From Bacteroidales bacterium (GTDB taxonomy: Bacteria; Bacteroidota; Bacteroidia; Bacteroidales; UBA12077), in contig JAHOYT010000038.1 of NCBI GenBank assembly GCA_019038645.1, forward strand, positions 1-32,173: DNA of 32,173 nucleotides. Reading direction: 5' to 3'. A program made the translations under genes and the position numbers. Every line of letters begins with the position of its first letter. The first letter of the stretch is position 1. Of this stretch, positions 594 through 14,087 are shown in pieces. The notes under the pieces were generated by a model. That model was given only the letters and a program-made list of their open reading frames with translations. It did no database searches and was not told where the DNA came from.

Positions 594-1781
594 TTAAAAA
601 CCCACCCTTTTTTTATCTCTTTTTAAGATTTTATTTAATACTTCGGACGGATTCTTAAATTTATTGGTAAACATCATTGCAGCGATAATATATGGTTTAA
701 AGCCTGCTTCCAAATATGTTCTGATTCTGTATTCTTCGAAAACTTCTCCGTTAACTTCGCCTTCTTTGCACGAAATTCCACTAATATCGGCAGGTAAACA
801 ATGCATATACAAAGCATCCTGATTTTTCGTTAATTTCTTTTTCGTTTCGTTGTATTCCCAATCCTTAAAATTGGCATTATTCGCTAAACACGTTTGTTCA
901 AGTGCTTTTAATCCTTCAGTATCAGAGTTTTTAAGCAATTCTGTTCTTTCCTGCATAATATGGAAAGGAGCCCAACTTTTTGGATAAACAATATCAGCAT
1001 CTTTCATTGATTCTTCCATATTGTGACTAATTTTGAATGATCCACCACTTTCTTCAGAATTCTTTTTAGCAATATCAACAATCTCAGGAATTAAGTCGTA
1101 ACCTTCGGGATAAGCTAATTCAATATCCATTCCGTAACGAGACATTAATCCAATAATACCTTGTGGTACTGATAATGGTTTTCCATAACTTGGCGAATAG
1201 GCCCAACTCATTACAATCTTTTTACCTTTTAAATTCTCCAACGAACCAAACTCTTTTTGCAAATGCATTAAATCTGCCATCGATTGAGTTGGATGATCCA
1301 TATCACACTGTAGATTCACTATTCCGGGACGTTCGGGTAAAACACCTTTTTCAAATCCTTCATTTAAAGCTTCTCCAACTTCGCGCATGTATTTATTTCC
1401 TTCACCCAAATACATATCATCACGAATTCCAATATAATCAGAAAGGAAAGAAATCATGTTTGCGGTTTCACGAACTGTTTCACCATGAGCAATTTGTGAT
1501 TTTTGCTCATCTAAATCCTGAACAGCACAACCTAATAAATTACTTGCCGACGCAAATGAAAAACGTGTGCGTGTTGAGTTATCGCGGAAATTTGAAATTG
1601 ATAAACCAGAATCAAATACTGATGGAGAAATATTATTATCTCTCATCTCCTTTAGAATCTCAGCAACTTCTAATATTCCTTTTAAATCTTCCTTACTTTT
1701 TTCCCATGTAAGTAAAAAGTCCTTTTTGTAAAGATCCGTTTTTAACTGACCTAGTTTATTAATTTTATCTTGTAAACTCAT
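594..1781 (-). CDS. ygeW: Knotted carbamoyltransferase YgeW
   Basis: YgeW belongs to the aspartate/ornithine transcarbamoylase superfamily. The carbamoyl-phosphate loop STRTR lies at residues 69-73, followed by the HPTQ motif in DMDHPTQSMADL (about 160-171) and HCLPAD near residue 333. At 395 residues it matches YgeW length and is much longer than the 303-residue PyrB in this window. The in vivo substrate is unsettled. Anaerobic purine and uric-acid clusters carry it next to ygeY and molybdenum hydroxylases, where it is proposed to act on ureido intermediates, forming or using carbamoyl phosphate. Here it lies 146 bases downstream of ygeY on the same strand, with a degenerate inverted repeat in the gap. 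The pair probably shares the promoter near 3150. No carbamate kinase is present in the window. Confidence 0.9.
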   Translation of the reverse strand: MSLQDKINKLGQLKTDLYKKDFLLTWEKSKEDLKGILEVAEILKEMRDNNISPSVFDSGLSISNFRDNSTRTRFSFASASNLLGCAVQDLDEQKSQIAHGETVRETANMISFLSDYIGIRDDMYLGEGNKYMREVGEALNEGFEKGVLPERPGIVNLQCDMDHPTQSMADLMHLQKEFGSLENLKGKKIVMSWAYSPSYGKPLSVPQGIIGLMSRYGMDIELAYPEGYDLIPEIVDIAKKNSEESGGSFKISHNMEESMKDADIVYPKSWAPFHIMQERTELLKNSDTEGLKALEQTCLANNANFKDWEYNETKKKLTKNQDALYMHCLPADISGISCKEGEVNGEVFEEYRIRTYLEAGFKPYIIAAMMFTNKFKNPSEVLNKILKRDKKRVGF

Positions 1782-1831
1782 ATCTTAAAATTTTCTATTA
1801 CTTCTATAAATAGTTTCTAATTTATGTGGTT

Positions 1832-1911
1832 CTTAGTGCTTTTGTGACTTTGTGGCTATAATTTCAGATATTTTCGCCATAAAGACTCTAAGACACAAAA
1901 TTAACACTAAG
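1832..1911. repeat. Degenerate inverted repeat between ygeY and ygeW
   Basis: The left arm (1832-1855) reads CTTAGTGCTTTTGTGACTTT and on to GTGGC. The right arm (1876-1911) carries the imperfect reverse complement, starting GCCATAAAGACTCTAAGACA and ending CACTAAG. It resembles a decayed copy of the CACAAAGACACTAAG-type intergenic repeats seen in many Bacteroidota genomes. It could fold in the ygeY-ygeW transcript. Confidence 0.55.
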
Positions 1912-1927
1912 ATATTGTCTCAAACAG

Positions 1928-3115
1928 CTATATCTCGTATGCAAAAGCAGCATAAAATGCCGATGCTACTACTAAATCATCGATAGCAACTTTCTCGTTT
2001 GGAGCATGTGCCAAAACTTCATTACCAGGACCAAAACCAATAGTTGGAATTCCATAAACTCCATTGGTCATAATGCCATTGGTTGAAAATGTCCACTTAT
2101 CAATTTTAGGTTCCTTATTAAATAAATTTTTAAATGTACTAACACCTGTTTGAACTATTTCATGATCCACGGGGATTTTCCATGTAGGATAATATTTTTC
2201 CATTCCATATTCCAATCCTGTATAAGCTGTCTCTAAATATTCAAGAACTTCAACTTTAGCATTCATTCCTTTGATTAATTCTTCGATTTCAGCAACAGCA
2301 GATTCTTTTGTTTCTCCCCATGTTAAACGACGATCTAAGTGAATTCGTGCGTAATCAGATACAGCACAAAGTGAAGGGCTACCAGAAGTAATCTCTGAAA
2401 TTGTAATACTTCCCTTACCTAAAAACTCATCGAACTTCAATCTTTCGTGCAATTGTTCAATTTCTAACGCCGTTTTAGATGCCATATAAATAGCATTCTT
2501 TCCACGTTCAGGAGCTGAGCCATGTGAAGAAACACCATAAAAGTGAACATACATCTCCATACGTCCACGATGTCCCCGATAAATATTTAAATTGGTTGGC
2601 TCAGTACTAATTACAAAATCAGGTTTAATCTTATCTTCTTCAACAATATATTTCCAACATAAACCATCACAATCTTCCTCTATTACACTTCCCACAAAAT
2701 ATATAGTAAGATCTTTATCGAAACCTAATTCCTTCAATATTCTACCTGTAGTAACAAACGCAGCAGGTCCACCTTCCTGATCAACAGTTCCACGACCATG
2801 AACAAAACCATCTTTTATTTCGCCGCCAAGCGGATTAAAATCCCAGTTATCCATATTTCCCATATCGACAGTATCCATATGTCCATCGATAGCAAGAATT
2901 TTTTTCCCGTTTCCTATTCTACCGATCACATTCCCTAAGCCATCAATTTTCACTTCATCAAAACCGGCCTCTTCCATTTGTCTTTTAAGTTCCAGTTGAA
3001 CTTCTTTTTCACCCAGACTAAGCGATTTGATTTGTACTAATTTTGATAAATTCTCTGCAGTATAATCACGATACTTCTCCGATAATTCATTAATTTTTTG
3101 AAAGATATTTTCCAT
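1928..3115 (-). CDS. ygeY: YgeY-type M20 metallohydrolase
   Basis: This 395-residue M20-family dinuclear zinc hydrolase is of the YgeY type (annotated elsewhere as selenium metabolism hydrolase). Metal and catalytic residues are visible: H79 and D81 in GHMDTVD, D112 in GRGTVDQEGG, the E146-E147 pair in VIEEDCDG, and a C-terminal histidine in the HAPNEK stretch. The dimerisation-domain signature VSSHGSAPERGKNA is also present. M20 enzymes cleave amide or ureido bonds of small molecules. In purine-catabolic clusters YgeY partners with YgeW, but its substrate is not firmly known. It is the first gene of the leftward operon, with a good TAACTTTG promoter box about 30 bases upstream of its start. 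The family call is strong; the pathway is inferred from the company of YgeW and XdhC. Confidence 0.9.
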   Translation of the reverse strand: MENIFQKINELSEKYRDYTAENLSKLVQIKSLSLGEKEVQLELKRQMEEAGFDEVKIDGLGNVIGRIGNGKKILAIDGHMDTVDMGNMDNWDFNPLGGEIKDGFVHGRGTVDQEGGPAAFVTTGRILKELGFDKDLTIYFVGSVIEEDCDGLCWKYIVEEDKIKPDFVISTEPTNLNIYRGHRGRMEMYVHFYGVSSHGSAPERGKNAIYMASKTALEIEQLHERLKFDEFLGKGSITISEITSGSPSLCAVSDYARIHLDRRLTWGETKESAVAEIEELIKGMNAKVEVLEYLETAYTGLEYGMEKYYPTWKIPVDHEIVQTGVSTFKNLFNKEPKIDKWTFSTNGIMTNGVYGIPTIGFGPGNEVLAHAPNEKVAIDDLVVASAFYAAFAYEI

Positions 3116-3143
3116 ACAATTTTCGTTCTAATAATTCTATTGA

Positions 3144-3172
3144 CAAAGTTACGTTTTTTATCGTATACAATA
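3144..3172 (-). promoter_or_regulatory. Promoter for ygeY-ygeW
   Basis: On the minus strand a perfect Bacteroidota -7 box TAACTTTG (3144-3151) is preceded, 16 bases upstream, by TTG (3168-3170) as a -33 element. The predicted start lies near 3137, about 20 bases before the ygeY ATG. Confidence 0.6.
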
Positions 3173-3235
3173 CATTTACAGAATAGTTTTATACTATCAA
3201 CTTATTCATTAGGAATATTTTTACAACTAACATAA

Positions 3236-3262
3236 TTATTGTAGCAAATTTTTCTACAATAA
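3236..3262. promoter_or_regulatory. Perfect inverted repeat, candidate operator
   Basis: TTATTGTAG (3236-3244) and CTACAATAA (3254-3262) are perfect 9-base inverted arms around a 9-base spacer, centred in the divergent ygeY/xdhC interval. No U-tract follows, so a dimeric regulator site is more likely than a terminator. Confidence 0.45.
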
Positions 3263-3320
3263 GAATCCATGCATTTTAAAAAATACAATTATTAAAGAAT
3301 ACAAAGCATTTCAACCTGAT

Positions 3321-3350
3321 TTTGCAGATAAATAAATATCTTTACATTGC
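3321..3350 (+). promoter_or_regulatory. Weak promoter candidate for the xdhC-family gene
   Basis: TTTG (3321-3324) is followed after 18 bases by TACATTGC (3343-3350), an imperfect TAnnTTTG box. The start codon is 20 bases downstream. TATCTTTA at 3337-3344 is an alternative box with poorer spacing. Confidence 0.35.
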
Positions 3351-3370
3351 TAAAAATCTAAAATTAAAGT

Positions 3371-4327
3371 ATGAAAATCTGGAGTTTTATTAGAGAAGAA
3401 CTATCTGAAAATAATAATGTAATGCTTATTGTGGTTGTTGAGCGAAACGGAAGTAGTCCGGGAGTTGTTGGTTTTAAAATGGCTGTTTCGGAAACTGGTT
3501 CAATGTCGGGGTCCATTGGTGGCGGTGTTATGGAATACAACATGGTTGAATTAGCTAAAAAAGCAGCTAAAGACGGAAATCAAAAGGCGTTTATTAAAAG
3601 ACAAAACCATAATCCTGATGCAGAAAAAGATAAATCAGGTTTAATATGTTCAGGGGAACAAACTCATGCATTTATTCTTTTAGATAAATCTAAAATGGAT
3701 ATCATAAATAATATCGTAATAAAATTGGACATACGTGAAAATGGGGCACTTTATTTAAATCAGGATGGAATTACTTTTGACGAAGCAAAAACCTTATCTT
3801 CAAGAATTAACTACAATTTTAAGGATGAAAATGACTGGGAATACACAGAACAGATCGGTTTAAAACCTACGCTCTATATTTTTGGAGCAGGTCATGTAAG
3901 CTTACCAATGAGTCAGATATTTAGAGTATTGGATTTTACTGTAGTAGTTTATGATAACCGCGATGAGCTTTCTACATTCGAAAATAACCAATTCGCACAT
4001 CGTAAAGAGATTGTAGATTTTAAAGATATTTCAAGTTTAGTTCCTGAAGGAGAAAACAGTTACGCTGTAATAATGACAGTCGGCCATAAAAGCGACGAAT
4101 TGGTACTTAAACAACTAGCTACTAAAAATCTAAAGTATCTGGGAATGATTGGAAGTAAAAACAAAGTAAAAACCATACATGACTCTCTAATTAACAAAGG
4201 AATTTCTGAAGCTGATCTTGCAAAAGTAGATTCACCAATAGGTTTATCCATAAACAGTAAATCAACTGCAGAAATTGCCATAAGTATTGCTGCAAAAATT
4301 ATTCAAGTGAAGAACTCGAACAGCTAA
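3371..4327 (+). CDS. XdhC/CoxI family molybdenum hydroxylase maturation protein
   Basis: This 318-residue protein has the two-part XdhC layout. The N-terminal XdhC/CoxI domain carries GSSPG (28-32) and SIGGGVME (about 48-55). The C-terminal Rossmann-like domain starts with IFGAGHVSLP (about 172-181) and includes MIGSKNKVKTI and SPIGLSINS. XdhC proteins bind molybdenum cofactor, handle its sulfuration, and pass it to xanthine-dehydrogenase-type hydroxylases; the longer forms also occur in selenium-dependent hydroxylase clusters. The hydroxylase subunits are not in this window. The gene is divergent from ygeY-ygeW and is ended by a hairpin overlapping its stop codon. The pairing supports a purine-type role, though a hydroxylase encoded elsewhere would be required. 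Confidence 0.88.
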   Translation: MKIWSFIREELSENNNVMLIVVVERNGSSPGVVGFKMAVSETGSMSGSIGGGVMEYNMVELAKKAAKDGNQKAFIKRQNHNPDAEKDKSGLICSGEQTHAFILLDKSKMDIINNIVIKLDIRENGALYLNQDGITFDEAKTLSSRINYNFKDENDWEYTEQIGLKPTLYIFGAGHVSLPMSQIFRVLDFTVVVYDNRDELSTFENNQFAHRKEIVDFKDISSLVPEGENSYAVIMTVGHKSDELVLKQLATKNLKYLGMIGSKNKVKTIHDSLINKGISEADLAKVDSPIGLSINSKSTAEIAISIAAKIIQVKNSNS

Positions 4328-4350
4328 TCATCTTATTATTAGCTGTTTAT
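4319..4350 (+). terminator. Intrinsic terminator of the xdhC-family gene
   Basis: AACAGCTAAT (4319-4328) pairs perfectly with ATTAGCTGTT (4338-4347) around a 9-base loop, followed by TATTTAT. The stem includes the stop codon. Confidence 0.65.
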
Positions 4351-4467
4351 TTATCTGCTAACACTTATTCTTACAATACAGTATCAGGAAATCCTGCTTA
4401 TACATTCGATGAATTTCTAAAATAAATTCTCTTCGAAATTCAATAATAAAGAGCTAATCCTTAAAAT

Positions 4468-4475
4468 TATATTTG
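4468..4475 (+). promoter_or_regulatory. -7 promoter box for the nine-gene operon
   Basis: TATATTTG is a perfect TAnnTTTG box, placing the start near 4482 and leaving an 80-base 5' leader before the first ATG. No clear TTTG -33 element is seen. An 8-base inverted repeat TGAATTTC/GAAATTCA (4410-4417, 4435-4442) lies just upstream. Confidence 0.4.
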
Positions 4476-4560
4476 CTTTTACATTGCAAATACTCTAATT
4501 GACTTTGATGAATATTTAGGTTATATTGCATATAATAGTATTTCTCTAAAATCTTATCTT

Positions 4561-5574
4561 ATGAATAAAGAAATAGAGATAATAGAAAAGATTCTTAATA
4601 TACTTCCCAAAAGCAAATTTTTGCAGAATGAATTTTTTGAATCCGATGCTGAAATTGTAAACTACAATAACAAAAAACTATTATTCTCTGTTGATGAATT
4701 TTCGCAGGAAGATTTTTTTAATGATAATAACCCTTATGAATTAGGTAAAAATGTAACAATTGCAACAATAAGTGATATACTAGCAAGTGGAGGAATGCCA
4801 TTATTTTATGCACATAGCCTATCAATAGACAACGAAAAATGGGATAGTAAATTTATTGAAGAATTTACTAAAGGTATTGCAACTGTTCTTAAAGAAACCA
4901 AGACCGGATTTATTGGTGGAGATACCGGAATATCAAAATTATGGAAATACACAGGTATTGTTATAGGGGAAGCTGAAAACCCTATTACAAGAATTGGAGC
5001 AGCAGAATGTGATCTGATTTATATGACTGGTGAAGTTGGTACTGGAAATATTGAAGCTGCAAAAAAGCTTTATTTGAACAATAATGTTAATGGAAACAAT
5101 TTAAACTTACCAAGACTAAAACTAAATTTAAGACATAAAGAGTCTGAGTTTATAAATAAATATGCTACATCTTGTATAGATTCAAGCGATGGCGTACTGA
5201 GTGCCATTAATACGATCTCAGATTTAAATAATGTAGGTTACAAAATTACTAATCTACCCTATTCAAAGGAAGTCATCCAATTTTGTGAATTAATTTCGAA
5301 ACCCAAATGTTTGTTTTTTATGGGAGAATGCGGAGAATATGAACTTGTATTTACGATTAAAGAAGAATCTAAAGATACTTTTATCCGGAAAGCAAACAGC
5401 AACCAACTTTCTTTTACACAAATCGGAGTAATTCAAAGCAAACATCAAAAGTTATTACAAACCGAAGATGATCATATTGATTTAGCGAAATACAAAATAA
5501 GTGCAAGAGACTATAATAATATTAGTAAGTATTTAACTGAACTAATAAATTATGTCGAACATAACAGAAAATAA
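4561..5574 (+). CDS. ThiL/PurM-superfamily (AIR synthase-related) kinase-like protein
   Basis: The 337 residues follow the ThiL fold order: an N-terminal acidic SDAEIV (28-33), SVDEF (43-47, the usual S/TTD element), SDILASGG (71-78), GGDT (119-122), MTGEVGTG (155-162), IDSSDG (206-211), and a variant GECGEYELVF where ThiL has GEDYELLF. ThiL phosphorylates thiamine phosphate with ATP. Most metal- and ATP-binding acidic positions appear kept, so ATP-dependent phosphoryl transfer is plausible. The context argues against a thiamine role: it heads an operon of acyl, prenyl and lipid enzymes and overlaps the ketosynthase gene by 23 bases. I read it as a pathway-specific kinase or ATP-dependent ligase of unknown substrate. 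Whether another thiL exists in the genome cannot be seen here. Confidence 0.75.
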   Translation: MNKEIEIIEKILNILPKSKFLQNEFFESDAEIVNYNNKKLLFSVDEFSQEDFFNDNNPYELGKNVTIATISDILASGGMPLFYAHSLSIDNEKWDSKFIEEFTKGIATVLKETKTGFIGGDTGISKLWKYTGIVIGEAENPITRIGAAECDLIYMTGEVGTGNIEAAKKLYLNNNVNGNNLNLPRLKLNLRHKESEFINKYATSCIDSSDGVLSAINTISDLNNVGYKITNLPYSKEVIQFCELISKPKCLFFMGECGEYELVFTIKEESKDTFIRKANSNQLSFTQIGVIQSKHQKLLQTEDDHIDLAKYKISARDYNNISKYLTELINYVEHNRK

Positions 5575-6841
5575 CAGAAGGGTCGTAATTACAGGTATCG
5601 GACCTGTTTGTTCCAATGGAATTGGCAAAGATGAATTTTGGAATAATATATTATCCCAAAAGTTTATAGTTGAAAGAATTCCTGAAAAATATCAATCTTT
5701 TCATAATTACAAAACCAGCTTTTACATTCCTTTTCCTAAGATTAATTTAGATGATTTTAGTTTTTTTAAAAAATATTCCGGTATAATGGAAGCTACATCA
5801 GTCCTGGCTATAGTTAGCACAGAGCTGGCGTTAATTGATTCAGGACTTAAAGAAGACACAAACTCTAACATTGCATCTGAAATATTAGAAAACTCAGGTA
5901 TTATTCTGGGAAATGGAATCGGCAGCTTAAATACAGGATTTAGTTTTTATGTATTTCATACATATAACAAGCTATTAAAAAATACACCTGGGGATTTCAT
6001 AAAACCAAAATTTAATAGAATGGTAATCCCCGCCACAATGCCTGATTCTGCTACAGCCTGGATTTCCATTTTATATAAAATAAATTCATTCAATTATACT
6101 ATTAATGCTAGCTGTGCATCCGGAACTTATGCTATTGGTGAAGCATTTCGCAAAATTAAAGATAGTTATTCAGATATAATGATAACAGGTGGTGTTGAAT
6201 GCTTGAAAGACGAAAGCGGTGCTATATTAAGAGGCTTTGATTCGCTTGGAACTTTAACAAAATCAACAGATGGAAGGCCTATGCCTTTCTCATATGATAG
6301 AAGTGGATTTTTATTTGCCGAAGGTGGTGGATGTATTTTAATACTTGAAGAATTAGAAATGGCTAAAAGTCGCGGAGCCAAAATATATGCTGAAATTGTA
6401 GATTATCAATCCAATAGTGATGCTCATAATATTGTTCAGGTTCAGGAATCAGGAGAGCAAATCGCTAAATTATTGAAAAGTGTTATTGGTAGCCATAAGA
6501 TTGATTATCTTAATACTCATGGAACAGGTACAGAGTTAAACGACAAAGTTGAGCAAAAAGTCATTAAAGAAATCTTTGGTAACAAGGAAAATCAACCTAT
6601 TGTTAATTCAACAAAAAGTATTCTGGGACATACTATTGGAGCAAGTGGAGCACTCGAAATAGCAGTAACTGCGCTTTCAATTAAAAACTCGAAAATTCAT
6701 GCTAATTTATCTGATAATAACTTTGATGATTTGAATCTTGCTACTAAAACAGTTGACATGGAAATAAATTATGCTTTGAAAACTTCTTACGGTTTTGGTG
6801 GTCACAATGCAGCTATTTTGTTGAAAAAATATAGAGAATAA
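5552..6841 (+). CDS. FabF-like beta-ketoacyl-ACP synthase
   Basis: This 429-residue type II ketosynthase of the KAS I/II (thiolase) fold has the complete triad: C188 in NASCASGT, H323 in NTHGTGTELND and H360 in KSILGHTIGASG. It opens with the usual VVITGIGPVCSNG (11-23). Because the cysteine is present it is an active-type KS rather than a chain-length factor. It is expected to condense an acyl primer with malonyl-ACP; the operon encodes no acyltransferase, ketoreductase, dehydratase or thioesterase of its own, so it probably borrows from housekeeping fatty-acid synthesis. Its start overlaps the upstream kinase-like gene, which indicates translational coupling. It is not simply the housekeeping fabF: the central region is divergent and the operon is non-canonical. 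The family call is secure; the chain length is unknown. Confidence 0.88.
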   Translation: MSNITENNRRVVITGIGPVCSNGIGKDEFWNNILSQKFIVERIPEKYQSFHNYKTSFYIPFPKINLDDFSFFKKYSGIMEATSVLAIVSTELALIDSGLKEDTNSNIASEILENSGIILGNGIGSLNTGFSFYVFHTYNKLLKNTPGDFIKPKFNRMVIPATMPDSATAWISILYKINSFNYTINASCASGTYAIGEAFRKIKDSYSDIMITGGVECLKDESGAILRGFDSLGTLTKSTDGRPMPFSYDRSGFLFAEGGGCILILEELEMAKSRGAKIYAEIVDYQSNSDAHNIVQVQESGEQIAKLLKSVIGSHKIDYLNTHGTGTELNDKVEQKVIKEIFGNKENQPIVNSTKSILGHTIGASGALEIAVTALSIKNSKIHANLSDNNFDDLNLATKTVDMEINYALKTSYGFGGHNAAILLKKYRE

Positions 6842-6850
6842 TATAAAAAG

Positions 6851-7903
6851 ATGATAAATCAAGATCAAAATAAACAGAAGGTTATGATAACAGGAGCGGC
6901 TGGTTTTATTGGTGGTCATGTTACCGAATATTTCTGTGAAAATGATGTTGATGTTTCATGCTTTATCAGAAATAGCAGCGATTTATCATACATAAAGGGA
7001 CTTCCAATTAAAACTATAAATGGAAGTATTACAGATATAGACAAACTTGAGAAATCTTTAAAAGGCATTGACACTGTAATTCATATTGCAGCACTTGCAA
7101 GGGATTGGGGGAATTATAAAAACTTTTACGAAGCAAATGTTATTGGAACTATAAATGTTTTGAGAGCTTGTACAATCAATAATATCCAGAATGTGATAAT
7201 TACAGGTTCTATTTCAAGTTATGGTGAAGAAGATTCAAAAGAAATAAAAACTGAAGAACATCCATTCAATTCACACTATAAGTATTTTTTAGATTCTATT
7301 TTTCCATGTAAAATGAATTATTATCGCGATACTAAATCATTAGCAACTAAGGAAGCTATAAAGTTTGCCAAAGAAAATGATCTAAATCTTACAATAATTG
7401 AGCCTGTATGGGTTTATGGTGAGAATGAATTCAATACAGGGTTTTATGAATACATCAGTTTAGTAAAAGGTCAAACATCATTTGTTTTAGGAAGCAAGAA
7501 GAATAAGTTTCATGTAGTTTATGTTAGGGATTTAGCAAGAGCCTACTTTCTCGCATTTAAAAAGAAATTAACCGGAGTAAATAGAATTATAATCGGCAAT
7601 AAGAAAATTAATTATGCTAATAAAATATACTCTACTTTTTGTGATGAGATTGGCGTTAAAAAACCAAAGAATATTGCCAAACAAATTATTTATCCGATTG
7701 GATTTTTATTAGAACTTTTTTATACAATTTTTTCAATAAAAAAAGCACCATTATTGACAAGAGGAAGAGTAAATATGTTTTATGATAACATAGAATACTC
7801 AACACTAAAGGCTGAAGAATTACTTGGTTTTACAAACAATTTTAGTATTGAAGAAGGAATAAAAAAAACAGTTAAGTGGTATAAAGAAAACAGTTTAATT
7901 TAA
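6851..7903 (+). CDS. Extended SDR, NAD-dependent epimerase/3-beta-HSD-like reductase
   Basis: A 350-residue Rossmann protein: nucleotide-binding GAAGFIGG (15-22), TGSISSYG (118-125) with the catalytic serine, and Y158xxxK162 in YYRDTK. The segment HIAALARDW (78-86) is typical of extended SDRs. Such enzymes oxidise or reduce sugar, sterol or acyl-ketone groups. Bacterial ceramide synthesis uses a related epimerase-like reductase (CerR) to reduce the ketone made by serine palmitoyltransferase. With an alpha-oxoamine synthase in this operon, ketone reduction of an acyl-aminoketone is my preferred guess. A hydrophobic stretch (about 273-291) could contact membrane. It starts 9 bases after the ketosynthase. 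The family is certain; the substrate is inferred. Confidence 0.82.
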   Translation: MINQDQNKQKVMITGAAGFIGGHVTEYFCENDVDVSCFIRNSSDLSYIKGLPIKTINGSITDIDKLEKSLKGIDTVIHIAALARDWGNYKNFYEANVIGTINVLRACTINNIQNVIITGSISSYGEEDSKEIKTEEHPFNSHYKYFLDSIFPCKMNYYRDTKSLATKEAIKFAKENDLNLTIIEPVWVYGENEFNTGFYEYISLVKGQTSFVLGSKKNKFHVVYVRDLARAYFLAFKKKLTGVNRIIIGNKKINYANKIYSTFCDEIGVKKPKNIAKQIIYPIGFLLELFYTIFSIKKAPLLTRGRVNMFYDNIEYSTLKAEELLGFTNNFSIEEGIKKTVKWYKENSLI

Positions 7904-7909
7904 GATATT

Positions 7910-9202
7910 ATGCTTACAGTTAAAAATTATACAGGCTTTACAAAAAAACTAATCAGCTTCAGGATTAAGTTGTACACTTTCATACACTTTACCGGACAAC
8001 TCCTTCGGGGTCGAATTAAACTGAGATATTTTTTTAGAGTATTGAGGCGATTATTATTTTTTCTTTCGTATATGCGAGATAATAAGTATTCTAAAATTGG
8101 AAAACGTTTCAAAATCCACCTGTATCTTCCGGGGTTTCCATCTAAGGCATTTTTCCATGCATGTGGCAAAGTACTTGAGTTTGATAAAAAAATGCCTGGT
8201 ATTTCAGTGTTAATATCGGTAACATCAGCTTGCAGATATAAATGTCCGCATTGTTATCAGAAGCATGATAAAGGAAAAGACATGGACATTAATGTTCTGA
8301 TAGAAACTGTTAAAAAGCTTCAGGATAAAGGAGTTGCATTTATTAATATTGAAGGTGGAGAGCCCTTTTTGGTTTTTGACCGTTTGAAAAAAGTTTGCGA
8401 TGCTATTGACGAAAGATCAGAAATATTGATAAATTCCACTGGTGATGGAATGACTTTTGAAAACTTGTCAGAATTAAAAAAGAATAAAAATATCATTGGT
8501 ATAATGTTTTCATTGCATAATGATAAACCCGAAGATATGAACAGATTTACGGGGGTTGAAAATGCATGGGAAAATTTTGAAAAAGGAATTGAATTATGTC
8601 ATAAGGTTGGATTAGCTGTTACTTTTAATACATGTTTATTAAAGGAGTCATTTTACAATGGAACTTTTGAAAATATCATGGAGGTTGCCAAAGATTTCAA
8701 TGGTTCAATGTTACAACTTATTAAACCAAAACCTGCAGGCGGTTGGCTTGAATCGGGAATAGAAGATTTTTCAAAAAAAGATATTGTACATATCACTAAC
8801 AAAGTTCATAAATATAATCTTGATAAAAGCCATAGGGATTACACGTTTATTTCGCCTATGATTATTGAAGAATCTGCTGAAGTATTTGGTTGCACGGCTG
8901 GTGGAACAGACCGTTTTTATATTAATGCAAAAGGTGACTTACAGGCTTGCGAATTCCTTAATATTTCATTCGGCAATGTTCAAGCTGATGATTTCGAAGT
9001 TATTTATGAAAAAATGCGAAAAGTATTTGAAAGTCCTTGCCAGACATGGTTGTGTGAAAAGCATTCCAGCCAAATACTTAAACTGAAAGAAACCAATAAT
9101 CTTTCAAGTCTTCCATTAACACCTGAAATATCAAAGCAAGTATATGAAAACTGGGATAGAACAGACTTAACTGATTTTTATAAAAAATTAAAAGAATTAT
9201 AA
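7910..9202 (+). CDS. Radical SAM protein with SPASM-like C-terminus
   Basis: A 430-residue radical SAM enzyme with CxxxCxxC at C108, C112 and C115 (CRYKCPHC) and EGGEP (148-152), the SAM-binding glycine-rich motif. C328, C347, C377 and C382 in the last third (FGCTAGG, LQACEF, CQTWLC) resemble a SPASM/twitch auxiliary cluster domain. About 100 residues precede the core and are rich in basic and hydrophobic residues (for example FFRVLRRLLFFLSYM, 41-55), consistent with a membrane-bound amphipathic segment. No precursor peptide gene is evident nearby, so a lipid or small-molecule substrate is as likely as a peptide. The stop codon overlaps the next start by one base. The chemistry cannot be assigned from sequence. 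Confidence 0.85.
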   Translation: MLTVKNYTGFTKKLISFRIKLYTFIHFTGQLLRGRIKLRYFFRVLRRLLFFLSYMRDNKYSKIGKRFKIHLYLPGFPSKAFFHACGKVLEFDKKMPGISVLISVTSACRYKCPHCYQKHDKGKDMDINVLIETVKKLQDKGVAFINIEGGEPFLVFDRLKKVCDAIDERSEILINSTGDGMTFENLSELKKNKNIIGIMFSLHNDKPEDMNRFTGVENAWENFEKGIELCHKVGLAVTFNTCLLKESFYNGTFENIMEVAKDFNGSMLQLIKPKPAGGWLESGIEDFSKKDIVHITNKVHKYNLDKSHRDYTFISPMIIEESAEVFGCTAGGTDRFYINAKGDLQACEFLNISFGNVQADDFEVIYEKMRKVFESPCQTWLCEKHSSQILKLKETNNLSSLPLTPEISKQVYENWDRTDLTDFYKKLKEL

Positions 9203-10245
9203 TGGAAAAACAGACAACAATATCTTTAGGCAAAAACCCTACAATCAACTTTCTTAAGGCTTATGTAAAATCTATGCGGCTGTATTATTCATTTGTCACC
9301 GGAATAGCAGGCTGGATTGGTGTTTCTTATTACGAATGGGTAGCTACTACTGAAGGAACAAGAGGAACATCTGATTTAGTTAAAAACATTGAAGTACTTC
9401 CTTCCCCTGAGAAAAAACTAGTAATTCTTATTCTTCTTTTTTTAAGTTGGGGGATAAATCAGATTTTTAATGATTATCTGGGGCTAAAAGAAGATCGCAT
9501 AAACGCACCAGATCGACCAATGGTTACAGGCAAACTACATCCTCAAAGAGCTGTATTATTATCCATAATATTATTAATTGGAACCATATTTATAACATAT
9601 TTTTATCTTGAACCTATAGCTATTTATCCACTTGCCATTGGAGTTTCGCTAAATATTATATACGAATATGCCAAAGGGCGTGGTATTTTAGGTAATATAG
9701 TTTTTGGTGTAATGATAAGTATGTGTGGCTTGTTCGGTTTCTTCGCTGCTGGTCCTATGGAAGTGTATTTTACGAAAAGCCGTATAAGTGCATTAGCTCT
9801 TATTGCAATATTAAATGGGCTGATGACCTATTATACATATTTCAAAGACTATTTTGGCGATAAAGCCACTGGCAAAAAGACCATTGTGGTGAAATTTGGG
9901 CTTGAAAAAAATAAGAGTATTGCCATTTTTTCATCCTTCCTTCCTTCAATATTATTTATTGGATCATATTATGGTTTTCAATCATTCGAGATTGAGTTAA
10001 ACAACACTTTTATAATTCTAGGAATACTAACCATCTTCCTTCAATTATGGACAGGTATGCTGTTTTACAGGAATCCGAAAGGTGAAATGACCTATTATTC
10101 TCTGGTTACAAACTTTAGGGCATGTACATGTGGTCAAGCAACTATTATAGCAATATTCAATCCGGAATTAGGCATAATACTGTTCTTATGTTCTTATGTA
10201 TTTGTAGGTTTCCTTTTTAATATTCACACAAATATAAAAGCATAA
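9202..10245 (+). CDS. UbiA-family prenyltransferase with variant first Asp motif
   Basis: An integral membrane protein of 347 residues with about eight or nine hydrophobic segments. The first active-site motif is N90-D91 in NDYLGLKEDRINAPDRP, and the second is D216/D220 in KDYFGDKATGKKT. UbiA enzymes transfer prenyl groups from prenyl diphosphate to aromatic, glycerol-phosphate or other acceptors. The IN.PDRP tail of motif one resembles digeranylgeranylglyceryl-phosphate and chlorophyll/heme-type members. Oddly, the usual NDxxDxxxD reads NDxxGxxxD, because G94 replaces an aspartate. A loop of about 30 residues between the first two membrane segments (47-72) is longer than usual. Translation is coupled to the radical SAM gene (1-base overlap). 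The family call is strong; donor and acceptor are unknown. Confidence 0.87.
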   Translation: MEKQTTISLGKNPTINFLKAYVKSMRLYYSFVTGIAGWIGVSYYEWVATTEGTRGTSDLVKNIEVLPSPEKKLVILILLFLSWGINQIFNDYLGLKEDRINAPDRPMVTGKLHPQRAVLLSIILLIGTIFITYFYLEPIAIYPLAIGVSLNIIYEYAKGRGILGNIVFGVMISMCGLFGFFAAGPMEVYFTKSRISALALIAILNGLMTYYTYFKDYFGDKATGKKTIVVKFGLEKNKSIAIFSSFLPSILFIGSYYGFQSFEIELNNTFIILGILTIFLQLWTGMLFYRNPKGEMTYYSLVTNFRACTCGQATIIAIFNPELGIILFLCSYVFVGFLFNIHTNIKA

Positions 10246-10258
10246 ATAATCAAAACTG

Positions 10259-11458
10259 ATGGAGATATTTGAGAAAGCATATATAGGCAAATGTGAATTG
10301 CAAAATCGAATTTTTCGATCTGCAACTTTCGAAGGAATGTGTGATGAAAATGGTATTCCCGGTAAAAATTATTTGTCTTTATATGAAGAACTTTCCAAAA
10401 ATAATATTGGAGGAATTATTACAGGTTTTGCATTTATTTCAGAAGAAGGAAAAGCAATTCAGCCAGGTCAGGCCGGCATTTTAAGTGAAAAATATATTGA
10501 ACATTTTAAGAAAGTAACATCGGTAGTTCATACAAATGGAAGTAAAATATTTTTGCAAATAGCACATACAGGGCGACAGACAAGAGAAACAGACATAAAA
10601 CAAAAAGTTGTTGGAGCTTCTGCAAAAAAATCAATGTATTTTAGAGAAAAGCTGTGGAACCTAAATACAGAAGAAGTATTTGAAATTATTGAGAAATTTG
10701 GCAACTCGGCTCTTTATGCAAAAAAAGCTGGTTTTGATGGTATTCAGATTCATGCAGCGCATGGTTATTTGATCCATCAGTTTATTTTGCCAACAATAAA
10801 CAACCGAAAAGACCTGTTTGGAATTGATCCTGAAAAAGGATTAGGGCTTAAATTTCTTGATTTAATAATTGATAATGTAAGAAACAAATGTAGTGATGAA
10901 TTTCCTGTTCTGATAAAAATTAGTGGCGACGATGACTATAAAAAGGAATTCTCTAAAAAGCAATTTTCAAATCTTATCGAATTTCTTGATTTAAAAAAAA
11001 TAGATGGAATTGAAATTAGCTATGGAACAATGGATCTTGCATTAAATATTTTCAGAGGAGATATTCCGATTGATTTAATTTTAAAACATAATAAAATTTA
11101 CAAAGTAGAAAGCAAATTTGCAAAAAAGATATTGAAAACTTTTATATTTCCTTTTGCTATAAAAAAACTAAAACCTTTCAGCCCGATGTATAATCTGAAA
11201 TATGCTGAAATAGCTAAAGAGTTAACTAAGATTCCAATTATTTCTGTTGGAGGCTACAGAGAGAAAAAGGAAATAGAATATGTCATAAAAAATAAGAATA
11301 TCGACTTTGTAAGTTTGTGCAGGCCATTCATTTGCGAGCCTGATTTTATGATAAAAATCGAAGAAAATAATAACTATAAATCAAAGTGTATAAATTGCAA
11401 TTACTGTGCAATTATGTGTGACTCTAAATTCTTAACCAAATGTTATAAAAAAGAATAA
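10259..11458 (+). CDS. Old Yellow Enzyme-family NADH:flavin oxidoreductase with Cys cluster
   Basis: An FMN-binding TIM-barrel ene-reductase homologue of 399 residues. It shows HTGRQ (103-107), the catalytic pair H165/H168 with Y170 in IHAAHGY, and the SVGGYR phosphate-binding element near residue 324. At the extreme C-terminus, C377, C380, C383 and C387 (CINCNYCAIMC), with C395, look like an iron-sulfur ligand set. In 2,4-dienoyl-CoA reductase such a cluster links FMN to a C-terminal FAD/NAD domain, but this protein ends right after it, so electrons must come from a partner. It would reduce an activated C=C bond, for example in an enone or a prenyl/acyl chain. The acyl carrier protein gene starts 3 bases downstream. 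Confidence 0.85.
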   Translation: MEIFEKAYIGKCELQNRIFRSATFEGMCDENGIPGKNYLSLYEELSKNNIGGIITGFAFISEEGKAIQPGQAGILSEKYIEHFKKVTSVVHTNGSKIFLQIAHTGRQTRETDIKQKVVGASAKKSMYFREKLWNLNTEEVFEIIEKFGNSALYAKKAGFDGIQIHAAHGYLIHQFILPTINNRKDLFGIDPEKGLGLKFLDLIIDNVRNKCSDEFPVLIKISGDDDYKKEFSKKQFSNLIEFLDLKKIDGIEISYGTMDLALNIFRGDIPIDLILKHNKIYKVESKFAKKILKTFIFPFAIKKLKPFSPMYNLKYAEIAKELTKIPIISVGGYREKKEIEYVIKNKNIDFVSLCRPFICEPDFMIKIEENNNYKSKCINCNYCAIMCDSKFLTKCYKKE

Positions 11459-11461
11459 ATC

Positions 11462-11692
11462 ATGGAATTATCAGATAAGTTAATATCCATAATAATGGAA
11501 AATACAGATCATAAATATAAGATTAACCCCGATACAAACCTTTTTACTGAACTAAACATTGACTCTTTTGGTAAGTTAATGATTGTTAATGCCATAGAAG
11601 ATGAATTCTCAATTGAAGTTGATGAAGAAGATATTGAGAAGTTTGCAACTGTAAATGAAATAATCGATGTATTAAAGTCAAAATACATTTAA
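11462..11692 (+). CDS. Acyl carrier protein
   Basis: A 76-residue acidic helical protein with a phosphopantetheine attachment serine at S35 in the motif IDSFGKL, where housekeeping ACPs usually read DSL. The flanking TNLFTELNI and the downstream EDEFSIEVDEEDIEKFATV are typical ACP helix II/III sequence. It is a stand-alone carrier placed between the ene-reductase and the PLP synthase, so it most likely delivers the acyl chain made by the ketosynthase to the alpha-oxoamine synthase, as dedicated ACPs do in bacterial sphingolipid and prodiginine pathways. No phosphopantetheinyl transferase is encoded in the window. Gaps are 3 bases upstream and 11 downstream. Confidence 0.92.
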   Translation: MELSDKLISIIMENTDHKYKINPDTNLFTELNIDSFGKLMIVNAIEDEFSIEVDEEDIEKFATVNEIIDVLKSKYI

Positions 11693-11703
11693 AAAAATAT
11701 TAA

Positions 11704-12885
11704 ATGAGCACTAAAGAATTTTATGAATTGCACCAGCTCAATATTGAGCTAAAGCGAAAAACAGGATTTAATCCATACTATGTCAATGTGCAGTCCGGGC
11801 TTAACGACTCGATTATTATTGATGGCAAAGAATTTATAAACTTAGCTGCAAACAACTATTTGGGCATTGCAAATGATATAAGAATCAAAGAGGCTACAAT
11901 TAATGCAATAAACAAATACGGTCTTTCGCTTTGTGCAACTCCAATTGCATTGGGCGGTACAGATCTTTATAAAAGTCTATCTCAAAAATTATCTGATTTT
12001 GTTGGGCTGGAATCAAGTATAATTTATCCTTCATGTTACCAGGCAAATAACGGATTATTCCCAGCAATAGCTGATAAAAATGATGTAATTATCATTGACC
12101 AGTTTTCACATTCATCTTTAATAGAAGGTGCAAGAACAGTTGGATGTAAGATAAGGCCCTTTTTACATAATAATTTAGATAGCCTTGAAAAAAATCTAAA
12201 AAATAGCCTGAAGCACAAGCAAGTTTTTGTTGTTACAGAATCAGTATTCTCAACCGAAGGTAGCATTGCTCCTTTTGCCGAAATTGTTGAATTATGTAAA
12301 ATATTTGATGCTATACCTGTAATTGATGATTCTCATGGAATAGGAGTTATCGGGAAAAATGGAAAAGGAATATTAGAGCATTCAGGTATTAAAGATTATC
12401 AGGGTATATACACAGCTTCTTTAGGCAAATCAATTGCTAATTCAGGTGGAATGATTAGCGGTAAAAAGACTTTAATTGATTACCTAAAATACTATTCCCC
12501 TCATCTTGTTTATTCCACATCCATTGCACCATCAATACTTGCAGGAATTGAAAAAGCAATTTGCATTATTGAAGAAGAGTTCGAGGTTTTAGGAAATAAA
12601 ATGTGGAAATATCGTAATAAACTAAGAGATGCTTTGATAGAATTTGGTTATGGTGTAAGATCTTCATCTGCCCCAATTACTTCAATAGTAACTGGCCCTT
12701 CCGTGGATACATTGCTTTTTGCAAAAGAACTTTATAACAGAAATGTATTAGCAACACCATTTATTTATCCTTCAGTTCCTGAAAATCAGGGAGTGATCAG
12801 ACTGATTGCCGGAGCAAACCTTGAAGAAAAAACTATAGACCGCGCTCTTCATATTTTTAAAGAAATTAAGGAAAGCCAGGGATAA
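11704..12885 (+). CDS. PLP-dependent alpha-oxoamine synthase (KBL/SPT/BioF family)
   Basis: A fold-type I aminotransferase-like enzyme of 393 residues. The Schiff-base lysine is K242 in TASLGKSIANSGG; D208 and H211 lie in IDDSHGIGVIGKNGKG, and H136 in DQFSHSSLIEG stacks on the cofactor. These synthases condense an amino acid with an acyl-CoA or acyl-ACP and release CO2. The DDSHxxG wording resembles 2-amino-3-ketobutyrate CoA ligase (glycine-using) more than the DEAHS form of serine palmitoyltransferase, so glycine or serine are both possible substrates. The adjacent ACP suggests acyl-ACP as donor. No biotin genes are nearby, which argues against BioF. Its stop codon overlaps the lipid kinase start by one base. 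The product is probably a long-chain alpha-aminoketone (inference). Confidence 0.85.
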   Translation: MSTKEFYELHQLNIELKRKTGFNPYYVNVQSGLNDSIIIDGKEFINLAANNYLGIANDIRIKEATINAINKYGLSLCATPIALGGTDLYKSLSQKLSDFVGLESSIIYPSCYQANNGLFPAIADKNDVIIIDQFSHSSLIEGARTVGCKIRPFLHNNLDSLEKNLKNSLKHKQVFVVTESVFSTEGSIAPFAEIVELCKIFDAIPVIDDSHGIGVIGKNGKGILEHSGIKDYQGIYTASLGKSIANSGGMISGKKTLIDYLKYYSPHLVYSTSIAPSILAGIEKAICIIEEEFEVLGNKMWKYRNKLRDALIEFGYGVRSSSAPITSIVTGPSVDTLLFAKELYNRNVLATPFIYPSVPENQGVIRLIAGANLEEKTIDRALHIFKEIKESQG

Positions 12886-13865
12886 TGAAGTATTTATTAA
12901 TCATGAATCCAGGCTCAAAAGGAGGAAAAAGTAAAAAATATTTTAATAAGATATTTGATGCTTTTAATAAAGCAAAAATTGATTATGATTATAAATATAC
13001 AACTGAACTTGACAATGCATACACATACTCTGCTGAAGCCAATAAAGCAGCTTATAATGTCATAGTTGCAGTTGGAGGTGACGGTACTATAAACAGTGTT
13101 TTAAACGGTTTCTTTGGTTTAAAAGGGAAATTAATTTCTAATTCCAAAATGGGTGTAATTTATACAGGAACAAGCCCCGATTTTTGTAAAAGTTATAATA
13201 TTCCAATAAACACTGATGAAGCTATAAAAACAATTATAGATAATTATTCAAGACAGATATATATTGGCAAATTGTTATGTTCATCTGAAAACGAGAAAAG
13301 CCTTAATGCTTCCGATTCCTCAGTGATTAAATCACCAAAACTCAAATATTTTGGCTGCTGTGCAAACATTGGCCTTGGAGCTACTTTGGCAAAAAAAGCA
13401 AATAATGGAATCCGAAAATATTTAGGAGATGCAATAGGCACTTTTCTTTCTCTTTTAAGCACATTAGTTGTTTATAAAGCCAATGATTTTATAGTAAAAA
13501 AAGATGATAATAAGCAAAAATTAAGCAATCTATATAATTTATCAGTTGGAAGAACAAAATTTATAGCTTCAGGAATTAAAGTTCATAACAATATCAAATA
13601 TTCGGAAAAAGGATTCTATTGTTTAACTGCCAAACAAACAAATCTGTTCAATTTACTAAATTCAGTAAAGAAAATATATAGCGGAAATGAATTCAATAAT
13701 TCAAAAGCTTTGTCATTAGATTATTGTAATAAGATTGAAATATATGGTAATAATAAAAATCCGGAAGTTGAATTAGATGGCGATCCTATTGGTTATTTAC
13801 CTTGTAAAATAGAAACAAGCATTGATAAATTAGATTTAATTGTAAAGAAAGAACTGCTCAGGTAA
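12885..13865 (+). CDS. YegS/DagK-type lipid kinase
   Basis: This 326-residue diacylglycerol/sphingosine kinase family protein has NPGSKGGKS (8-16), the nucleotide-binding GGDGT (64-68) and a C-terminal PEVELDGDPIG stretch typical of the family. The catalytic domain phosphorylates a lipid hydroxyl with ATP at the membrane surface. The family includes diacylglycerol, sphingoid-base and undecaprenol-type kinases and cannot be narrowed by sequence. Being translationally coupled to the alpha-oxoamine synthase, it probably phosphorylates the hydroxyl formed when the aminoketone is reduced, or the final lipid product. It is the last gene of the operon. Confidence 0.85.
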   Translation: MKYLLIMNPGSKGGKSKKYFNKIFDAFNKAKIDYDYKYTTELDNAYTYSAEANKAAYNVIVAVGGDGTINSVLNGFFGLKGKLISNSKMGVIYTGTSPDFCKSYNIPINTDEAIKTIIDNYSRQIYIGKLLCSSENEKSLNASDSSVIKSPKLKYFGCCANIGLGATLAKKANNGIRKYLGDAIGTFLSLLSTLVVYKANDFIVKKDDNKQKLSNLYNLSVGRTKFIASGIKVHNNIKYSEKGFYCLTAKQTNLFNLLNSVKKIYSGNEFNNSKALSLDYCNKIEIYGNNKNPEVELDGDPIGYLPCKIETSIDKLDLIVKKELLR

Positions 13866-13909
13866 CAATTGTTAATAAATCTGTTAATAGAATATTCAAA
13901 TATCTATTT

Positions 13910-13936
13910 TTTGTAATCAGGAATTATTTATCTTTG
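13910..13936 (+). promoter_or_regulatory. Promoter of the leader / EamA-yigZ-pyrBI operon
   Basis: TATCTTTG (13929-13936) is a perfect TAnnTTTG box, with TTTG (13910-13913) 15 bases upstream, slightly closer than usual. The predicted start is near 13943, giving a leader of about 127 bases up to the terminator at 14033-14069. Confidence 0.5.
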
Positions 13937-13964
13937 CACAGAATATGATTTTTGATATTTAAAA

Positions 13965-14027
13965 ATGACATTAAAAATATTTAAAGACAAAATACAGTCA
14001 ACAATTGAAAATATAAGGGTCCATTGA
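13965..14027 (+). CDS. Possible 20-residue leader peptide
   Basis: An ATG opens 20 codons (MTLKIFKDKIQSTIENIRVH) closed by TGA, placed after a promoter box and ending 5 bases before an intrinsic terminator. The last codons and the stop lie in a small GGGTC/GACCC hairpin (14017-14030). No amino-acid run points to a particular effector. It could be a real attenuator peptide or a chance ORF in a small RNA. Confidence 0.35.
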   Translation: MTLKIFKDKIQSTIENIRVH

Positions 14028-14032
14028 CCCCG

Positions 14033-14069
14033 AAAAACAGGTTTCTAAAAATAGAAACCTGTTTTTTTT
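14033..14069 (+). terminator. Intrinsic terminator/attenuator upstream of EamA
   Basis: AAAAACAGGTTTCT (14033-14046) pairs with AGAAACCTG plus following T residues (14053-14066) around a 6-base loop, with an eight-T tract at 14062-14069. It lies between the leader promoter and the EamA start at 14088, so it terminates the leader RNA and may also stop read-through from the upstream operon. Confidence 0.8.
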
Positions 14070-14087
14070 GTGCAATAGCGAACGATT

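Follow-up and report, generated by a model that had tools for sequence, protein, structure and literature searches.

A nine-gene cassette conserved as a unit in several bacterial phyla, with a tentative sphingoid–isoprenoid route to its product

A block of nine genes at positions 4561–13865 of a contig from a Bacteroidales bacterium (GenBank assembly GCA_019038645.1, contig JAHOYT010000038.1; the window is the whole stretch of 32,173 nucleotides that was analyzed) almost certainly encodes a single pathway, and its product is very probably a lipid or a lipid-anchored compound. Seven to nine of the nine protein families recur side by side in loci of six phyla, as assigned from record titles. In the genomes of the window's genus that we compared, one site, between xdhC and eamA, carries either the entire block or none of it, through either gain or loss. 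The segment is laid out as follows.

4325–4560, + strand: cassette leader, after the xdhC stop; belongs to the inserted or lost segment
4561–5574, + strand: gene 1, ThiL-like kinase of the AIRS superfamily (Pfam AIRS; NCBIfam thiL, 144 bits)
5552–6841, + strand: gene 2, FabF-type ketosynthase (KS), C188-H323-H360 (Pfam, NCBIfam)
6851–7903, + strand: gene 3, extended short-chain dehydrogenase/reductase (SDR), Y158-x3-K162 (Pfam, NCBIfam)
7910–9202, + strand: gene 4, radical S-adenosylmethionine (SAM) enzyme of the SPASM/twitch type (Pfam, NCBIfam, AlphaFold2)
9202–10245, + strand: gene 5, UbiA-superfamily membrane transferase (Pfam, NCBIfam, AlphaFold2)
10259–11458, + strand: gene 6, old-yellow-enzyme-type (OYE) ene reductase with a C-terminal cysteine cluster (Pfam, NCBIfam)
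11462–11692, + strand: gene 7, acyl carrier protein (ACP), D34-S35 (Pfam)
11704–12885, + strand: gene 8, alpha-oxoamine synthase (AOS), pyridoxal phosphate (PLP) lysine K242 (Pfam, NCBIfam, alignments)
12885–13865, + strand: gene 9, lipid kinase of the diacylglycerol kinase (DAGK)/YegS type, GGDGT and GTSPDF (Pfam, NCBIfam, alignments)
13872–14087, no strand: downstream spacer, the native eamA leader; aligns over its length with four empty xdhC–eamA spacers

The coordinates of the open reading frames (ORFs) bear out the preliminary description of this DNA, which reported nine same-strand genes with gaps of −23 to +13 bases: the successive gaps are −23, 9, 6, −1, 13, 3, 11 and −1 bases. The G+C content is 31% in the cassette and 31% in the remaining window.

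Conservation of the cassette as one unit

We scanned a genome collection with a four-row alignment of the radical SAM protein and identified neighboring genes by tblastn with the window proteins. The scan gave 27 loci, of which 25 (L011–L035) are cassette relatives; L036 and L037, which are weak or partial matches, were excluded from the cassette count, and two extra loci (L056 and L057) came from genomes of the Herbivorax class. Eighteen uncut loci were compared (the window, L013, L014, L017, L019, L021–L026, L028, L030, L031, L033, L035, L056 and L057); those cut by a contig end (L011, L012, L015, L016, L018, L020, L027, L029 and L032) stand outside the 18. Three entries (L008, L009 and L010) repeat L014, L017 and L035, and none is counted twice among the 18. 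By their coordinates, G1201, G1209, G1211 and G1199 appear to be the genomes of L013, L011, L012 and L015.

The preliminary description had named a neighborhood search for co-conservation as one test of its proposal, and this search found all nine genes together in 11 of the 18 uncut loci. L035, where all nine are present, has an additional ORF between KS and SDR. Two more loci have all nine genes partly unlinked: the UbiA gene lies 5.6 kb away from the cassette in L057, and the UbiA–OYE pair of L026 is on a separate contig of its genome (L077). The other five are without OYE, KS (L019 and L021), or KS and ACP (L031 and L033). The ThiL-like, SDR, radical SAM, UbiA, AOS and DAGK-like genes occur in all 18, in the locus or in its genome. 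Since KS, ACP and OYE are missing in some carriers, we regard these six as the core.

By record title, the uncut carriers belong to Bacteroidota, Bacillota (Herbivorax sp. ANBcel31, of the Acetivibrionaceae; a Clostridiales metagenome-assembled genome, or MAG; HGW-Firmicutes-12; and Anaerovorax), Auribacterota, Neomarinimicrobiota, Fibrobacterota (Chitinispirillaceae) and Ignavibacteriota, which we take to be mostly anaerobic groups. The preliminary description looked to Bacteroidota alone, but the cassette is not a feature of that phylum. It is rare there: of 247 genomes sampled from the order, four have the cassette UbiA, and of 395 from the phylum, only the window's genome does. Five other phyla carry it. 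The radical SAM gene was detected at cassette strength in 3/341 genomes of the Herbivorax class and in 4/197 Ignavibacteria-class genomes (each count including the center genome), the latter all apparently among the L011–L035 loci. Because this occurrence is patchy, the cassette has apparently spread horizontally.

Within the family of the window, the cassette radical SAM gene is found in 5 of 25 genomes, all of them within the window's genus (5/20). The next downstream gene, eamA, which we take to be a possible transporter, was detected in 19 of the 20 genomes of the genus. Eight of the 19 loci have xdhC immediately ahead of eamA with a gap of 0.2–0.4 kb, and one more has it ∼1 kb away; all nine are radical-SAM-negative. 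The cassette lipid kinase stands directly before eamA in three loci, all radical-SAM-positive. The remaining seven have neither gene in the flank; two of them are carriers (L087 and L088) and two have short flanks. The xdhC–eamA spacer of four empty sites aligns with the window from ∼13872–13875 to 14087, and the four have no counterpart of the leader at 4325–4560. Because the spacer aligns only past ∼13872 and the leader is unmatched, the variable segment spans ∼4325–13872 and includes its own leader, with edges ∼12 bp or less from the xdhC and lipid-kinase stops. Neither flank stretch of the cassette contains direct end repeats.

The genes have also diverged in concert. Pairwise distances for the nine genes correlate with r of 0.57–0.94 over 36 pairs, values that partly reflect shared host ancestry. 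With near-duplicates removed (L011, L012, L013, L015, L021 and L057 left out, KS and ACP outside the test), 20 of 21 pairs among seven genes give r of 0.47–0.87, and at most 11 of 2000 permutations are as high. Carriers from phyla other than Bacteroidota and Ignavibacteriota, nine at most, are on average 38% identical to the window in ACP, 43% in the ThiL-like protein, 59% in UbiA, and 49–56% in DAGK, KS, AOS, radical SAM, OYE and SDR.

The genes fall into three blocks: A (ThiL-KS-SDR-rSAM, where rSAM is the radical SAM gene), B (UbiA-OYE) and C (ACP-AOS-DAGK). Bacteroidota and Ignavibacteriota have the order A-B-C; the other carriers have B-C-A, with B apart in L026 and UbiA apart in L057. 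On a quick five-gene tree of 23 rows, in which L028 has a long branch, one change explains the block order and two are needed for KS presence. Chance co-location was considered and rejected, given that the same families adjoin across phyla and that the block comes and goes as a whole.

Family membership and active sites

Pfam agrees with the families named in the preliminary description, giving AIRS, ketoacyl synthase N and C, epimerase/3beta-HSD, radical SAM, UbiA (89 bits against a cut-off of 34.2), FMN oxidoreductase, PP-binding, aminotransferase I/II and DAGK_cat. Aminotransferase I/II is the fold to which AOS enzymes belong. The match of gene 1 is to the general AIRS domain only, and its closest NCBIfam family is thiL, for which the cut-off is 184 bits. 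Among the NCBIfam matches listed (the best 25 of 29 for KS, of 26 for SDR and of 40 for radical SAM), none of the nine proteins is above a curated cut-off. The KS scores 286 bits against a FabF-like family with a cut-off of 494, the AOS 304 bits against its best family (cut-off 460), and the lipid kinase, which is above the Pfam DAGK_cat cut-off, 100 bits (cut-off 119). The SPASM domain of Pfam is above cut-off in the L057 relative and is not listed for the window radical SAM protein. Because all listed scores are under the NCBIfam cut-offs, these profiles relate each of the nine proteins to a known family without placing it in any curated function.

A separate ThiL above cut-off is present elsewhere in 9 of 19 genomes searched, which makes housekeeping ThiL activity unlikely as the general role of gene 1. 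The window's genome (96.9% complete) has no thiL match above cut-off. Its three matches lie at C43:4570–5487, C62:18346–19008 and C1:141763–142647, and the best of them is the ThiL-like gene of the cassette. Because no ThiL above cut-off is found in that genome, gene 1 may have a double role there, as housekeeping ThiL and in the cassette.

Residue conservation was assessed over 28 loci, dropping for each gene the rows that covered <75% of its length or contained a stop, so that 16–25 rows were kept. Catalytic roles follow general knowledge of the families, except for those of the AOS, which were taken from parts of a study of the sulfonolipid synthase SulA (PMC9304779). The KS triad C188-H323-H360 is invariant in 16 rows. 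Y158 and K162 of the SDR are invariant in 25 rows, as are C108-C112-C115 (CX3CX2C) and the auxiliary C328, C347 and C382 of the radical SAM protein. H165, H168 and Y170 of the OYE are invariant in 21 rows, and its five C-terminal cysteines, all retained in 20 of 21, probably form a 4Fe-4S site. D34 and S35 of the ACP, and N50, H136, D208, H211, K242 and R366 of the AOS, are invariant in 20 rows each; by motif and spacing, the AOS residues match Asn53, His140, Asp217, His220, Lys251 and Arg376 of SulA. The ThiL-like protein keeps D29, D45, D72, D121, D207 and D210 in 20 rows, and GGDGT and D298 of the lipid kinase are invariant. Judged by these residues, each cassette enzyme looks active.

Four of the enzymes, in the alignments made here, bear invariant signatures unlike those of the known relatives compared. 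In UbiA, N90, D91, D98, D216 and D220 are invariant and the second motif, DxxxD (D216 and D220), is kept in 21 rows; the first motif reads ND[YF]LGxxED in 21/21 rows, replacing the NDxxDxxxD of the family, with Gly for the middle Asp. The corresponding motif is NDIFDIEID in digeranylgeranylglyceryl phosphate (DGGGP) synthase and begins NDYFD in a UbiA paralogue of the same genome. The AOS has the signature C[AG]TP and, 30 residues past the PLP lysine, Thr272, invariant in 20 rows, at a position occupied by Ala in serine palmitoyltransferase (SPT), Asn in KBL and Lys281 in SulA. The lipid kinase reads GTSPDF in 21/21 rows where DgkB reads GTVNDF (family motif GTxND), and the ThiL-like protein has E50-D51 and ECGEYEL.

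AlphaFold2 models agree with these assignments for the two enzymes modeled. The radical SAM model (pLDDT 90) places two long N-terminal helices (residues 9–32 and 38–57) ahead of the barrel. Its fold neighbors are SPASM/twitch and viperin-like enzymes (SkfB, SuiB, BlsE, viperin and MoaA) and give no hint of substrate; to our knowledge, none of them is a lipid-directed enzyme. For the UbiA model (pLDDT 87), the top 16 solved folds are all UbiA-superfamily, the closest being archaeal DGGGP synthase. Profile matches agree with the fold, being nearest to DGGGP synthase and chlorophyll synthase, both of which prenylate oxygen.

A proposed route and its rivals

From the enzyme families we infer a product and an order of steps, and the chemistry suggested in the preliminary description plausibly fits the same families. 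The dedicated KS and ACP would provide an acyl-ACP or beta-ketoacyl-ACP, a task falling to host fatty-acid synthesis where they are missing. The AOS would join this acyl-ACP to an amino acid with loss of CO2, giving a long-chain alpha-aminoketone that the SDR would reduce to a sphingoid-like amino alcohol. The DAGK-like kinase would phosphorylate this compound, and the ThiL-like kinase would either add a second phosphoryl group or work on another intermediate. UbiA would then attach a prenyl chain, placing an isoprenoid second chain where ceramides carry an N-acyl chain. Finally, the OYE would reduce an activated C=C bond, and a C–H or C–C modification by the radical SAM enzyme, probably made at the membrane, would yield a phosphorylated sphingoid–isoprenoid hybrid lipid. 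A special acyl chain is suggested by the KS being dedicated to the cassette, and an isoprenoid second chain is proposed because UbiA is nearest the ether-forming DGGGP synthase and no N-acyltransferase family is conserved among the loci compared. That the cassette is a self-contained unit making a membrane lipid by this scheme is a tentative proposal, to which we give less than even weight, though more than to any rival. Its fuller form is a little more doubtful: an undescribed lipid class, in which a phosphorylated sphingoid base would acquire an isoprenoid second chain from a non-canonical UbiA and be altered by a membrane-bound radical SAM enzyme, the portable cassette serving anaerobes of six phyla.

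The linkage (11/18), the whole-block presence and absence, the correlated divergence, the invariant active sites and the long N-terminal helices of the radical SAM model speak for the scheme. The ACP-AOS-extended SDR core, parallel to acpR-spt-epi of Rhodobacteria (PMC9386255), and the closeness of UbiA to DGGGP synthase and chlorophyll synthase count in its favor too, as does the retention of unlinked UbiA in the genomes of L026 and L057. Several observations weigh against it. L017 has no OYE match anywhere in its genome; a nineteenth uncut locus, L034 from a Cloacimonadota MAG, is a remnant with an SDR fragment and a broken radical SAM gene; and UbiA has no match in two of seven genomes searched, the partial-cassette MAGs of L034 and L027 (a Heliobacteriaceae MAG with its radical SAM gene at the contig end). 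UbiA is also the least concordant gene, with r of 0.30–0.66 against the others, the lowest value being for the UbiA–DAGK pair, which 155 of 2000 permutations reach; because its distances correlate least with the others, UbiA may have been exchanged during the history of the cassette. The phyla rest on record titles, and most carriers are MAGs. A simple route to a lipid monophosphate offers the ThiL-like enzyme no obvious role. With its middle Asp missing, UbiA may not take a standard prenyl diphosphate as donor, and another donor or acceptor is possible. Finally, the AOS is not an SPT by cut-off, scoring 275/640 (CFB), 218.7/500 (beta) and 163.1/670 (alpha) bits, and has Thr272 in place of the SPT Ala.

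The last point bears equally on the idea that the cassette directs ordinary bacterial sphingolipid or sulfonolipid synthesis in a variant form, its product tailored in an unusual way. The ACP-AOS-SDR core and the resemblance of the lipid kinase to sphingoid kinases are in favor of this idea. The Rhodobacteria sphingolipid genes aasR-acpR-spt-epi-aca, as described in parts of PMC9386255, contain the same core of sphingoid-base synthesis in acpR-spt-epi, with a dedicated ACP adjoining an AOS and an epimerase/dehydrogenase-type SDR. Unlike these genes, the nine do not include an acyl-ACP synthetase, and they add the KS, both kinases, UbiA, the OYE and the radical SAM enzyme. No N-acyltransferase (bCerS/aca) family is conserved across the loci, a comparison in which flanking ORFs were not annotated singly and whole genomes were not searched. 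SulA of Alistipes, an ACP-dependent sulfonolipid synthase, shares the N-H-D-H-K-R active-site set of the cassette AOS but differs at its specific Lys281, which corresponds to Thr272 (PMC9304779, in part). The AOS cut-offs and position 272 thus make a simple sphingolipid or sulfonolipid operon less likely, and two of 21 carrier genomes have a separate SPT above cut-off as well. Taken together, we consider the variant quite improbable. Three further AOS genes are present in the window's genome (C13:14518–15684 and C13:26551–27696, ∼11 kb apart, and C6:25589–26752); they are nearer the SPT model than the cassette AOS, yet under its cut-off.

The two kinases and the altered metal motif of UbiA are accommodated by a different scheme, a bespoke diphosphate route, which is the main rival to the sphingoid–isoprenoid proposal. 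True ThiL converts a monophosphate to a diphosphate, and in plants phytol kinase and phytyl-phosphate kinase feed UbiA enzymes by the same logic. Here, an alcohol derived from a fatty acid would receive one phosphate from the DAGK-like enzyme and a second from the ThiL-like enzyme, and the resulting diphosphate, in place of a normal prenyl diphosphate, would be the private alkyl donor of UbiA. Two fitting kinase kinds and UbiA are found in one unit, all three in 18/18 uncut loci or their genomes, and the changed first motif of UbiA is consistent with an unusual donor. UbiA enzymes, however, use allylic or otherwise cation-stabilized diphosphates, and a plain amino alcohol gives neither; moreover, the ThiL-like protein falls short of the thiL cut-off, so it is not certain that its acceptor is a phosphate. 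We consider this route unlikely, though with an appreciable share of the probability.

A third possibility is an alkylpyrrole-type route, in which a beta-ketoacyl thioester from KS and ACP would be joined by the AOS to glycine or serine and cyclized to a pyrrole, with the SDR and OYE adjusting it and the kinases and UbiA decorating it. The RedL/RedK and PigH steps of the prodiginines follow the same logic, and KS, ACP, AOS and SDR are all present in the cassette. The AOS also has an invariant Thr79 where SPT has Ser (aligned by eye), at a position we take to be tied to glycine choice in 5-aminolevulinate synthase. Unlike the prodiginine branch, the cassette is without multidomain proteins and adds kinases, UbiA and the radical SAM enzyme; we know of no kinases in pyrrole routes. 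The KS is missing in 4/18 uncut loci, two of which are also without ACP, and no cassette-type KS was found elsewhere in the five searched genomes that have no cassette KS. FabF-like genes in those five reach 31–36% identity only, and one genome has none at threshold. We consider the alkylpyrrole route improbable.

It is very improbable that the product is a quinone-like, membrane-soluble redox carrier of anaerobes, with UbiA anchoring a redox head built by the AOS, OYE and radical SAM enzyme. The carriers are, we presume, mostly anaerobic, and a probable Fe-S flavoenzyme and a radical SAM enzyme are present; against this, Pfam finds no aromatic-ring enzyme among the nine, the KS and ACP suggest a fatty chain, and the two kinases would be unexplained.

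Returning to the sphingoid–isoprenoid proposal, its prenylation step finds an analogy in archaeal ether-lipid synthesis, where a phosphorylated lipid is O-prenylated by DGGGP synthase, the nearest relative of the cassette UbiA by profile and fold. Unlike the archaeal route, none of the nine is a geranylgeranylglyceryl phosphate synthase or a glycerol-1-phosphate dehydrogenase by Pfam, and the middle Asp of NDxxD is Gly. Archaeal-lipid genes have been described in the FCB group (parts of PMC7852524).

The celluxanthene (cex) cluster of cellulolytic clostridia was compared because the carrier Herbivorax is a relative of the cex host (PMC12144888, in part). It was rejected: cex centers on an iterative type I polyketide synthase (PKS), and no PKS is found among the nine. 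The terms 'oxoamine synthase', 'prenyl', 'kinase' and 'radical SAM' are absent from the main text of PMC12144888. AOS-centered lipid pathways are of a known kind, and this gene set is found nowhere in the literature searched; as the preliminary description suspected, it has no characterized match in open-licence PubMed Central literature, among the matches listed. A Black Sea study reports diverse sphingolipids, some correlated with Desulfobacterota, Bacteroidota and Marinisomatota, and in the parts available names no such cassette (PMC11334938); these lipids suggest a place to look for the product.

Genomic surroundings and significance

No family beyond the nine is widespread among the loci, and those common to at least three loci are either native neighbors in near relatives of the window (e.g. 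eamA) or belong to a mixed cluster, C9, which occurs in eight loci and includes regulator-like proteins. Genes for export, resistance or a PKS are thus not conserved across the loci, which fits a lipid product better than a secreted antibiotic. A C9 protein directly follows the cassette in three Ignavibacteriota-like loci (L031:13082–14101, L032:6020–7267 and L033:15686–16714), and the two scanned, those of L031 and L033, have no Pfam match. A short gene directly precedes UbiA in three Bacillota-type carriers (L056:2589–3032, L025:1305–1763 and L030:1546–2001). The L056 gene is helix-turn-helix by Pfam, and the L025 and L030 genes cluster together and are similar to it by eye; the short gene is perhaps a cassette regulator. 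Broken radical SAM genes in L015, L016 and L034 (within the remnant) reflect decay or sequencing error.

The class-wide searches also returned two distant radical SAM relatives in the Herbivorax class (L053 and L054) and one other (L055), with no other cassette gene adjoining except a FabF-like KS near one of them. The two Herbivorax-class relatives represent a sister radical SAM/SPASM family beside two methyltransferases (L053:3101–5824 and L054:9326–12051), and in L053 FabF-like genes and others apparently for fatty-acid synthesis lie nearby; no known pathway matched the L053/L054 neighborhood.

In the window itself, the leader contains a promoter-like match at 4499–4527, by consensus only, and the number of matches in the region (60) is similar to the shuffle mean (55.4). 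Upstream of the cassette, positions 594–4327 encode what we take, by the look of the translations, to be a carbamoyltransferase, a YgeY-like peptidase and xdhC; together they may form a purine/ureide degradation cluster. At 17119–17771, two overlapping ORFs in different frames presumably represent a REP-associated tyrosine transposase split by a frame change. The window contains no tRNA and no Rfam match above the gathering score, and a plasmid collection gave one weak archaeal match only.

A pathway that is about half identical across phyla, consists of biosynthetic enzymes only and is present or absent as a block is very likely to yield a single useful compound. Among the carriers, Herbivorax sp. 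ANBcel31 is recorded under the name of a strain and not as a MAG; it may therefore be in culture, where the product could be tested. If the product is indeed a sphingoid–isoprenoid hybrid, it would combine the bacterial fatty-acid and the archaeal isoprenoid styles of membrane in a single molecule. The cassette would then also contribute a UbiA subfamily whose metal motif is altered, a new ThiL-type phosphotransferase and a SPASM radical SAM enzyme that acts on lipids.

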